The position numbers were made by a program, and so were the translations under genes. A stretch of 64,000 nt of DNA from Candidatus Nitrosotalea sinensis (GTDB lineage Archaea; Thermoproteota; Nitrososphaeria; Nitrososphaerales; Nitrosopumilaceae). Below the pieces are notes generated by a model. That model did no database searches. It worked only from the letters and a program-made list of their open reading frames with translations, and was not told the DNA's origin. This document shows, piece after piece, positions 54,199-57,391 of this stretch. Numbering within the stretch: the first letter of the stretch is position 1; every line of letters begins with the position of its first letter. The stretch spans positions 498,095 to 562,094 of the forward strand of contig NZ_FRFC01000003.1 of assembly GCF_900143675.1 (NCBI RefSeq), given 5' to 3'.

Positions 54199-54744
54199 CT
54201 ATTTTCTCTTGATTGAGAGTGTCTTTTGTACTTCGTTGATGCTGCTGAGGAACTTTTGCTTTGCTTCGTATTCGTCTGTCACCTTGATGGTTATCTCTGA
54301 AGCTGAAAACATGACGTCTTTGACAAGTATTGGTGGTGTGAGTCCTAAAAGCTCACTTAGTATGGCAAGTATGTTGTTGTATGTTGAATTGTTTTTGTAA
54401 TGAAATATTGTATTTCCGTCTGCAACCTTTGGGTTTGGCTCTAGCGGTATTACAAGATCATGTGATGTAAATTCTGTGATAAATAATGAAATGTCTTCTT
54501 TGACTTTGGTGCTAAGTTCCTCTTTTTGTGCAATTAGTTTTTCTTTTGCCTTTTCCAGATCTGTTGATGCATCGTAATAATCTTGGCCAATCATTTTTGC
54601 AAACGTGGATTCTGTCTGGCTCTTGAGTGGAATTTCATGAATTCTGAAATTTACTGTTGCAAGCTCGTCTTCTGTGTCTTTTAATTGGGTTCTGTTTTCT
54701 CTGATGCGGGTTGCAACTTGTTCCAAGAATGTAAAGTCAGCCAT
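54199..54744 (-). CDS. Coiled-coil protein encoded next to artubulin
   Basis: 181 residues. An N-terminal helix pair (about 10-100) has heptad-like spacing and many Glu/Lys (an IRENRTQLKDTEDELATVNF stretch), then a folded C-terminal domain with beta strands. No membrane segment. It lies 2 nt after the artubulin stop on the same strand, so it is certainly co-transcribed. A role as partner, chaperone or filament-binding protein is inferred only from this tight linkage. No named family recognised. Confidence 0.72.
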   Translation of the reverse strand: MADFTFLEQVATRIRENRTQLKDTEDELATVNFRIHEIPLKSQTESTFAKMIGQDYYDASTDLEKAKEKLIAQKEELSTKVKEDISLFITEFTSHDLVIPLEPNPKVADGNTIFHYKNNSTYNNILAILSELLGLTPPILVKDVMFSASEITIKVTDEYEAKQKFLSSINEVQKTLSIKRK

Positions 54745-54746
54745 TT

Positions 54747-56135
54747 CTAGCTAAACTCGTGGACTACATCCATAAGACTTGCCTTGAATTCTTCTGTAGT
54801 CAATCCCCACTTGCCATATTCATCTTTGAATGCATCCCAGGATGCTTCGGCCTCACTTGCAATCTCTAGAATTTTTGGTCCTATTGCCTTTGTATTGACA
54901 AGTATTGTGACATTTGCTTGTTCTGTTTCAAGTATTGGAATCTTGATGAATATCATTCTTGATTCCTCGATGTGGAATCTGTCCTTTATCATGTTCTTGA
55001 GAGTCTCTCTTTCTTTTGCCTCAAAGTCTCCCTTTACTTTGACAAGTGCACAACATGAATCCTTTGGACCTCCCTTGTCTCTTACATCGTTGTCATCGAT
55101 ATCAAACAGTACTGCATCTTCTTTCTTGTTGATGTGTTCTACTATTCCCTCCATTGTGTTGTGCTTGGTACCTGTCATCAAATCAGAGCTCCATTGTCTT
55201 TCTTCTGGAATGATTGGAATCACCCACGGGATTGCAAATCTTGGTCTTTTTGTTGCAAGCCATGTTCTATAGTTTGACATGTCCCATTCTGTCTCTCTTG
55301 CAAAAGATGCAATAAACATCGAGATTGCATTTGCTGCAATCAAGTTCATTCCTCTGTAATCTTTCCACCCGACTTCGTGTTCTTTTGGAAGATCATCTAT
55401 GATAGATGACATCTTGTCTAGTCTTTTCTCGTGTCTTTGCGCAAGCTCTCTTAATCTCTTGTTTGAAAATAGAATAGAACAGTCACTGTACTTTATCTGG
55501 TGTTCTAGGTTCATGACGATGTTGATTGCAGATGCTTCTAGTATGACTGGGTCCCAGCCAAATTCTGGCAATAATCCAAATGATGCAATTGTTGCGTGTT
55601 CCTTGGTGTCTTTTTTGATGTATTGCATGAAAGCACTTGCAAATGAAGCGCCCGTTCCGCCTCCCATTGCAAATGGAATTGTAAATCCTCTTACTGGTTC
55701 TGGTGAAAGACTTGCAAGTTGCTTTTGCATGTCATATTTTGTACTTACTTCTTTGATGAATCTGGTACGGCCTTCTGCCCAGTTTCTTGCAGCGCCTCCT
55801 GCACCAGAGATTACGTGTTTGTCTCTTAATGCAAACAAGTCTGGATATGATTGTAATATCAAATTGGCAGCTCTTGGGTCAAGGTCAATTAGTAGAGCTC
55901 TTGGAATAAGTGGAATCTCGCTTCCTCCATAAGAGTTTGGAAATCGAAGAATTGTACTACCGTATCTTTTTAGTATGCGGGATTCATCTTTTTCTCCCTT
56001 GAGTGTTGGCTTGAGTGGGTCTGCACCTACATCTAACAACAATCTTCTATATGCTTCTGCACCAAGACCAATGCCGCAATGACCAAAGGATGTCATTATC
56101 ACTGGGGCCGGGGGTAATGGAGCAAATTTTGACAA
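54747..56135 (-). CDS. Archaeal tubulin (artubulin-like)
   Basis: 462 residues, tubulin length rather than FtsZ length. Blocks in tubulin order, aligned by eye: T1 GHCGIGLG (18-25; tubulin GQCGNQIG), IPRALLIDLDP (77-87; VPRAILVDLEP), GAGGAARNWAEG (111-122; GAGNNWAKG), T4 GGGTGAS (158-164), T5 with Asp195 and Glu200 (LPEFGWDPVILEASAIN), SNKRL (224-228, Asn for the base), and a core H7. The T7 loop reads TEWDMSNY (282-289), lacking a catalytic Glu in the usual place. No acidic tail. Probably assembles into filaments, GTP-dependent. TTG start, with GAGTGAT upstream. Confidence 0.9.
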   Translation of the reverse strand: MSKFAPLPPAPVIMTSFGHCGIGLGAEAYRRLLLDVGADPLKPTLKGEKDESRILKRYGSTILRFPNSYGGSEIPLIPRALLIDLDPRAANLILQSYPDLFALRDKHVISGAGGAARNWAEGRTRFIKEVSTKYDMQKQLASLSPEPVRGFTIPFAMGGGTGASFASAFMQYIKKDTKEHATIASFGLLPEFGWDPVILEASAINIVMNLEHQIKYSDCSILFSNKRLRELAQRHEKRLDKMSSIIDDLPKEHEVGWKDYRGMNLIAANAISMFIASFARETEWDMSNYRTWLATKRPRFAIPWVIPIIPEERQWSSDLMTGTKHNTMEGIVEHINKKEDAVLFDIDDNDVRDKGGPKDSCCALVKVKGDFEAKERETLKNMIKDRFHIEESRMIFIKIPILETEQANVTILVNTKAIGPKILEIASEAEASWDAFKDEYGKWGLTTEEFKASLMDVVHEFS

Positions 56136-56173
56136 ATTTAATCACTCTTTGAAAGCGGATCTTGTCTCTTTAA

Positions 56174-56181
56174 CCATATAG
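56174..56181 (-). promoter_or_regulatory. TATA-like box of the artubulin operon
   Basis: On the minus strand CTATATGG precedes AGTGATTAAA by about 30 nt. The predicted transcript starts near 56150 and carries GAGTGAT as ribosome-binding site about 8 nt before the TTG start at 56135. The region 56136-56283 has no gene, so the artubulin pair has its own promoter. Confidence 0.45.
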
Positions 56182-56283
56182 TGCAAGATTGTACAGTCCA
56201 TACTTGATAGTTGTAGACATGATTTGCCGTTTTCAATCCTGTGTCTTGATTGGGTTTTTTTGCATTTAAGATTTGGGAATGAA

Positions 56284-56580
56284 TTATTCTTCTTCAGTTA
56301 GAGCTTTTTTGAGGACACGAAATTCCTCTATTGATATTTGGCCTTCTGCCAGTCTCACCCTGAGTACCTCAAGTGATGTATCTCTTTTGGGTGGGGGAGT
56401 AACTGGTTGTTCTTTTTCTGGAGTATCAGGGGACTCGAGTAAATTTTGGATGTATCTATAATCTGACATGACAACTGGCTCGCCACTTTTTATCTCCTCA
56501 ATTATGTTGCGTAATCTCTTGGTGTCTCCTCTACCTGATGCAAGCAGGCCCTTGATTGTTTTTAGCATATCTTCTGACAT
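56284..56580 (-). CDS. SHOCT-domain protein
   Basis: 98 residues. A helical N-terminal part (about 1-45), a Pro-rich linker (PEKEQPVTPPP), then a C-terminal SHOCT unit, roughly EVLRVRLAEGQISIEEFRVL. SHOCT domains often mediate oligomerisation. It lies 1 nt after the TPR gene, so the two are one operon, and precedes the artubulin promoter by about 100 nt. Function unknown. Confidence 0.75.
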   Translation of the reverse strand: MSEDMLKTIKGLLASGRGDTKRLRNIIEEIKSGEPVVMSDYRYIQNLLESPDTPEKEQPVTPPPKRDTSLEVLRVRLAEGQISIEEFRVLKKALTEEE

Positions 56581-56581
56581 T

Positions 56582-57391
56582 TTATTTTACCACTGTCTTG
56601 AATCTTGAATCCCCTTTTATCTTATCGAATGCTAAATCTGTTGCCGCCCACTTTTTTATGGTTTTGCCGTAGTGAGATATTGCTTGTGCAAGAAGTATCA
56701 GAGCATCATCATTTTGGCCAAGAAGTGCTTTGCTTCGTGCTTTGGCATAAATTATTGTACCGTTTTTGGGGTGTTCTTTTAGTATTTTATCAAAGATCTC
56801 AATTGCCTCTTGGTGTCTTCCAAGTTCTGACAATTCTGTTGCCTTGTAAAATATTGCCTCATTGTTATCTGGTTCTTTTGTTAGTATTTTGTCAAAATAT
56901 GAAAGGGCCTCTTCATGTTTTTTCTGCTTGCCTAACACTAGTCCCTTGTAGTATGTTGCTTGCATGTTTTCAGGTTCTTGCTCCAGAACTTTATTTAGGC
57001 AATTGATTGCATCATCGTATTTTTCCAGTCGTATGCTTGCAATTCCTTTGTTGTACAAGGCTGGAATGTAATTGGGATTGTTTGCAAGTGCCCTGTCATA
57101 GTATGTCACTGCCTTGGCAAACTCCTGAGACTCGGCATGATGATTTCCTAAATTATTTAGTGCATCTGTGTGATTTGGGTCAAGTGAAATTATTTTTTCA
57201 AAACATGATGCAGCATCTTTGTTCTTTTTTAGGGCAAGCAGGGACATGCCTTTATTGTATAGTACATCTGTGTTTTCTGGATCTTGTTTAATTGCCTTGT
57301 CAAAAAATGAGATTGCCTCTTTATGCCTTTCTAGTTTTGCATAACTTGCTCCCTCTGCAATAATTTTTTGAATTGAATCTTTATCGGCCAT
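56582..57391 (-). CDS. Tetratricopeptide repeat (TPR) protein
   Basis: 269 residues consisting of six or seven TPR units of 34 residues (for instance EAISFFDKAIKQDPENTDVL, then DALNNLGNHHAESQEFAKAV). No signal peptide, so cytoplasmic. TPR arrays form scaffolds for protein complexes. Same strand as SHOCT and artubulin, gap of 1 nt to SHOCT. It could help assemble a complex, but the link to artubulin is only positional. Confidence 0.88.
   Translation of the reverse strand: MADKDSIQKIIAEGASYAKLERHKEAISFFDKAIKQDPENTDVLYNKGMSLLALKKNKDAASCFEKIISLDPNHTDALNNLGNHHAESQEFAKAVTYYDRALANNPNYIPALYNKGIASIRLEKYDDAINCLNKVLEQEPENMQATYYKGLVLGKQKKHEEALSYFDKILTKEPDNNEAIFYKATELSELGRHQEAIEIFDKILKEHPKNGTIIYAKARSKALLGQNDDALILLAQAISHYGKTIKKWAATDLAFDKIKGDSRFKTVVK

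Follow-up and report, generated by a model that had tools for sequence, protein, structure and literature searches.

The locus studied here raises the question of what a tubulin-family protein does in an ammonia-oxidising archaeon, and with which other protein it works. The window, i.e. the whole stretch of 64,000 nucleotides that was analysed, belongs to a 1.6 Mb genome (G000; 10 contigs, 99.9% complete) for which the closest matches among public records are assemblies of Nitrosotalea and of related thaumarchaea (84-99% identity). This genome encodes an AmoA of archaeal type (E=3e-108), which bears out the initial annotation as regards the host: it is an ammonia oxidiser of Nitrosotalea type. 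The gene product (Table 1) matched the Pfam tubulin GTPase domain PF00091 with E=2e-16 and a score of 61 bits, above the cut-off of 33 bits, its reading frame is intact in relatives (67-99% identity), and sequence comparison places it among the artubulins, which are tubulin-family proteins of thaumarchaea. This family was named in 2012 in Nitrosarchaeum (PMC3349469) and is also treated in PMC9871819 (2023) and PMC13394414 (2026); from 2012 onwards, its members have been invoked as possible ancestors of eukaryotic tubulin, or as its cousins. The artubulin family is already known; what is added here is a conserved gene pair, a wider distribution and an observation on the T7 loop.

Table 1. Features of the artubulin locus and of the same window (positions are those of the window).
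Feature	Position	Strand	Remarks
FtsZ-like gene of the same genome	28947-29903	(-)	
Partner gene	54199..54744	(-)	181 aa; start 2 nt past artubulin stop
Artubulin gene	54747..56135	(-)	462 aa, TTG start; predicted tubulin-family GTPase
T7 / synergy loop block RETEWDMSNYRTWLA	55254..55298	(-)	residues 280-294; almost unvarying in family
Asn288 codon	55272-55274	(-)	position of alpha-tubulin catalytic Glu254
T4 glycine loop GGGTGAS	55644..55664	(-)	residues 158-164; GGTG invariant in 70 artubulins
T1 nucleotide loop FGHCGIGLGA	56058..56087	(-)	conserved in 70 artubulins; aligns with tubulin GQxGxQIG
Conserved non-coding upstream stretch	56136..56225	(-)	with TGTCTAYAACNATCAAG (56203-56219) and ACAATCTTGCACT..GGTTAAAG
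SHOCT-like small protein and six-repeat TPR protein	56284-57391	(-)	upstream of artubulin, close genera only

A small gene directly downstream follows artubulin on the same strand and in the same order at every locus that could be checked on a contig, with a gap of usually 2-19 nt, some alternative starts overlapping. It was present in each of the 72 family genomes with artubulin and in each of the 87 in the class sample, and it is the sole other gene family common to all ten taxonomic groups within 9 kb of artubulin; one genome (G298, loci L099 and L100) carries two complete artubulin-partner pairs. No artubulin was encountered without its partner, but the partner can occur in the absence of artubulin. 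A sensitive partner profile indeed revealed homologues in artubulin-less genomes of two further families, f2, where the protein is full length and diverged and its gene adjoins a radical-SAM gene, and f3, where it is about 120-160 aa long, lacks the coiled-coil arm and is encoded at most loci near ribosome-biogenesis genes. The partner is therefore not strictly artubulin-specific and may have another role. Remnants of the partner gene broken by stop codons were found in two genomes of artubulin-bearing families (G212:C12:39861-39983 and G330:C30:2055-2580), in neither of which artubulin was found, and in genome G359 the contig stops at the place expected for artubulin. Since one deletion can remove both adjacent genes, co-loss is weaker evidence than conserved adjacency, and it is the adjacency, kept amid scrambled flanks, that provides the stronger evidence for a link between artubulin and its partner. 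The same small coiled-coil gene always coming after artubulin suggests a two-protein filament system.

As for the partner itself, structure prediction gave an N-terminal helical hairpin or coiled coil (residues 4-92, pLDDT mostly 70-88), followed by a C-terminal alpha/beta domain with a basic tail, in a model of moderate overall quality (pLDDT 68) for which no PDB fold match was obtained at E<=0.001. Profile matches of the partner to PDB entries were dismissed as coiled-coil noise, and its Pfam matches to Mis12, Sos7, Spc24 and Zwint, weak and scattered, were rejected as coiled-coil bias. It should also be mentioned that eight f3 loci (L125-L131 and L136), in genomes without artubulin, hold a short homologue of the C-terminal domain, and that at most of these eight loci the neighbours resemble, by eye, ribosomal protein S19e, an RNase P component and a Nep1-like methyltransferase.

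The nucleotide site was compared across 70 distinct artubulin sequences. In tubulin and FtsZ, the active site of one subunit is completed by the T7 loop of its neighbour, which provides a catalytic acid, E254 in alpha-tubulin and D212 in FtsZ. Conservation of T1, T3 and T4, together with D195, N225, Y260 and N264, in the 70 artubulins leads us to expect GTP binding. The blocks GHCGIGLG, IPRALLIDLDP, GAGGAARNWAEG and GGGTG, on which the tubulin assignment had first been based, are all present, and those checked are conserved throughout this set; the D and E proposed to match tubulin in the T5 block fared differently, D195 being invariant and E200 being replaced by Gly in 14 of the 70 sequences. 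Residue 288 is Asn in 69 sequences and Ser in the remaining one, with no acid at the T7 catalytic position: both MAFFT modes, tubulins included, set E-W-D-M-S-N opposite N-V-D-L-T-E, and thus N288 opposite E254. The register of this alignment could be off, and an acid elsewhere, E283 or D285, could be the catalyst. Human microtubules with alpha-tubulin E254N show no GTP hydrolysis and are stable (PMC8764682), and human beta-tubulin carries a Lys at the T7 position, where hydrolysis is unsupported (PMC13394414). From the family-wide replacement of the catalytic acid by Asn, slow or assisted hydrolysis and a long-lived filament are predicted, so that T7 yields a sharp yes/no prediction on GTP hydrolysis.

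We favour, with a probability of roughly 60%, the reading that artubulin works with the downstream-encoded protein and forms GTP-binding protofilaments in which hydrolysis is slow or partner-dependent. Artubulin would bind GTP and form protofilaments by head-to-tail assembly, in which each T7 loop presumably meets the nucleotide of the next subunit; with Asn in place of the catalytic acid, GTP hydrolysis in such a filament would be slow or would need assistance, and the filament would be long-lived. The coiled-coil partner would be the best candidate for a protein that regulates, cross-links, tethers or completes the filament, thereby taking the place of the ESCRT-III (Snf7) link in the scheme, and cell shape, an internal scaffold or segregation may be the cellular jobs concerned. 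Cdv division, for its part, goes on in relatives without artubulin. The conserved partner appears as the obvious missing component for reconstitution, and no report of a biochemical test of any artubulin was found in the literature searched.

The T7 change could instead mark lost filament dynamics, artubulin then being a tubulin-like protein that binds GTP without polymerising and serves in signalling or as a scaffold. This would suit the missing catalytic acid, a C-terminal half diverged beyond detection and the fact that no filament has been reported in cells of this kind (PMC7613921), yet we regard it as rather unlikely, given that all the nucleotide loops are kept and that the T7 loop is among the least variable parts of artubulin across the 70 sequences, a near-invariance expected if T7 still contacts the neighbouring subunit.

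The distribution of artubulin was broader than described in the literature found. The gene was found in 34 of the 37 genomes of the window genome's genus, where it is standard, and the suggestion that the window might come from a new lineage carrying artubulin gives way to that of a known family in a Nitrosotalea-type genus; the statement that artubulins were reported only from Nitrosoarchaeum was likewise incomplete, the artubulin of Ca. Nitrosotenuis uzonensis having been published in 2013 (PMC3835317). Artubulin occurred in 72 of 250 genomes of the family and, using the family profile, in 87 of 400 class genomes, belonging to four families of the order (f1, f4, f5 and f9). AmoA was absent from all f4 and f9 genomes tested, whereas those tested from f1, f5, f2 and f3 encode it: the range of artubulin extends beyond ammonia oxidisers. 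Beyond the order, neither the class sample nor the phylum sample contained an artubulin, and the plasmid search yielded none. In the GTPase-domain tree, artubulin sequences group by family, with f4 and f9 against f1 and f5, which suits vertical descent with many losses, for example in most genomes of genus g15, better than a recent arrival. A late arrival in Nitrosarchaeum is unlikely, as artubulin also occurs in families without amoA. Tentatively, and with somewhat less than an even chance, artubulin and the 181-residue protein may make up a cytoskeletal module of two components that has not been described before. It would be ancestral to a large part of the thaumarchaeal order and would predate ammonia oxidation or be independent of it; its tubulin, unable to hydrolyse GTP by the usual T7 acid, would show partner-dependent dynamics, the partner being absent, decayed, arm-less (f3) or diverged (f2) in lineages devoid of artubulin. 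The wider distribution also supplies divergent artubulin sequences for better trees.

A link with ESCRT-III was proposed in 2012 from two genomes, and the loci of genus g11, which are Nitrosarchaeum-like, do show a CdvB-like gene adjoining artubulin as in PMC3349469, the neighbours CdvB, CMP/dCMP deaminase and DNA polymerase matching the published Nitrosarchaeum context. We nevertheless consider it improbable that ESCRT-III (CdvB/Snf7) is the main partner of artubulin in cell division. Among the other groups with listed neighbours, none showed CdvB/Snf7 adjoining artubulin, and the Snf7 candidates of the window genome lie about 450 kb or more from artubulin, none of them next door; the absence of an Snf7 neighbour had already been noted for N. 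uzonensis (PMC3835317). Moreover, 178 of the 250 family genomes are without artubulin, and N. maritimus, which is among the organisms lacking it, divides with Cdv (PMC3349469). The constant partner and the rare CdvB adjacency weaken the gene-neighbourhood argument for an ESCRT-III partnership.

The placement of artubulin on the tubulin side was examined with a family profile built from 18 diverse artubulins. This profile matched the Heimdall tubulin at 1e-22 and Loki tubulins at 1e-17 to 2e-14, and human gamma-, beta- and alpha-tubulin at 5e-14 to 6e-11, versus E=4.7 for CetZ1 and E>1000 for three FtsZ; the best solved-structure matches of the GTPase domain were likewise Asgard tubulins (1e-16), then eukaryotic tubulins (1e-12). 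The human references were checked against PDB letters, one alpha residue being swapped for the PDB letter, the CetZ letters were those of PDB chains, and TubZ, whose best-known copies lie on toxin or virulence elements, was for that reason left out of the reference set. In a GTPase-domain tree, artubulins, Asgard tubulins and eukaryotic tubulins stood apart from CetZ and FtsZ with a support of 100/100, and forced groupings of artubulin with CetZ (p 0.0024) or with FtsZ (p 0.0023) were rejected. In the GTPase-domain alignment, the IPRA-x-LxDLxP and N[WYF]A blocks were found in artubulin, with NWAEG conserved in the 70 sequences; FtsZ and CetZ lack both blocks, as initially claimed. That artubulin is a divergent FtsZ or CetZ is hardly credible: a superfamily fold and the T4 glycine loop are common to all and the PF00091 model covers both, but profile, profile-profile and tree tests favour tubulin, the tree rejecting such groupings at p about 0.002, and a separate FtsZ lies in the same window. 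The tree does not fix the branching order inside the tubulin side, where branches are long, and neither it nor the 2026 trees (PMC13394414) settle how artubulin bears on the origin of eukaryotic tubulin.

Significant tubulin similarity spans approximately residues 12-235, so that the original description of an alignment along most of the length was too strong. The C-terminal half (236-462) scored 18.8 against tubulin, compared with 13.6+-2.4 for column shuffles, the highest of which reached 20.9: as regards the intermediate and C-terminal helical domains of tubulin, the full-length global profile alignment looked sensible, yet this half alone remained within the shuffle range, as did C-terminal homology read from N-[ST]-[TK]-A-I and a downstream EF motif, which was convincing by eye and was rejected. 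An AlphaFold2 model of artubulin, computed from an alignment of near-identical sequences, reached a pLDDT of 33.

Bacterial tubulins offer a useful comparison: in Prosthecobacter, BtubA and BtubB share an operon with a TPR (kinesin-light-chain-like) gene. Artubulin resembles this system in being a prokaryotic tubulin accompanied by a gene for an accessory protein, and a TPR gene also lies near it, two genes upstream, but the constant partner of artubulin is not a TPR protein; the TPR neighbour, kept only in genera g1 and g18, was rejected as a BtubC-like partner. The Asgard tubulins (AtubA/AtubB and OdinTubulin) are the closest solved relatives of the artubulin GTPase domain, and AtubAB are described as GTP-hydrolysing heterodimers that form microtubules (PMC13394414), whereas there is usually one artubulin gene, whose product carries Asn at T7 and is accompanied by a coiled-coil partner rather than by a second tubulin.

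Closer to the window protein, the artubulins of g11 (75-77% identity) and g16 (79-81% identity) are full length and carry the same motifs, and the window protein is, by these alignments, orthologous to the published Nitrosarchaeum artubulins. The downstream partner is common to the window locus, Nitrosarchaeum and N. uzonensis; the window locus differs from Nitrosarchaeum by the lack of an Snf7 neighbour and by its upstream genes (SHOCT and TPR proteins). Text searches of openly readable papers, with supplements and subscription papers outside their scope, returned no report of artubulin in Nitrosotalea, and no description of the partner's conservation or of the T7 Asn was found in the artubulin passages of the literature. 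Lastly, a conserved short upstream reading frame, MSTTIKYxLYNLALYG, was rejected as a peptide, its frame being broken in several loci. The non-coding stretch that precedes artubulin is strongly conserved across genera g1, g18 and g16, its TGTCTAYAACNATCAAG part occurs in exact form only once in the genome, and it is possibly a promoter or regulatory element.
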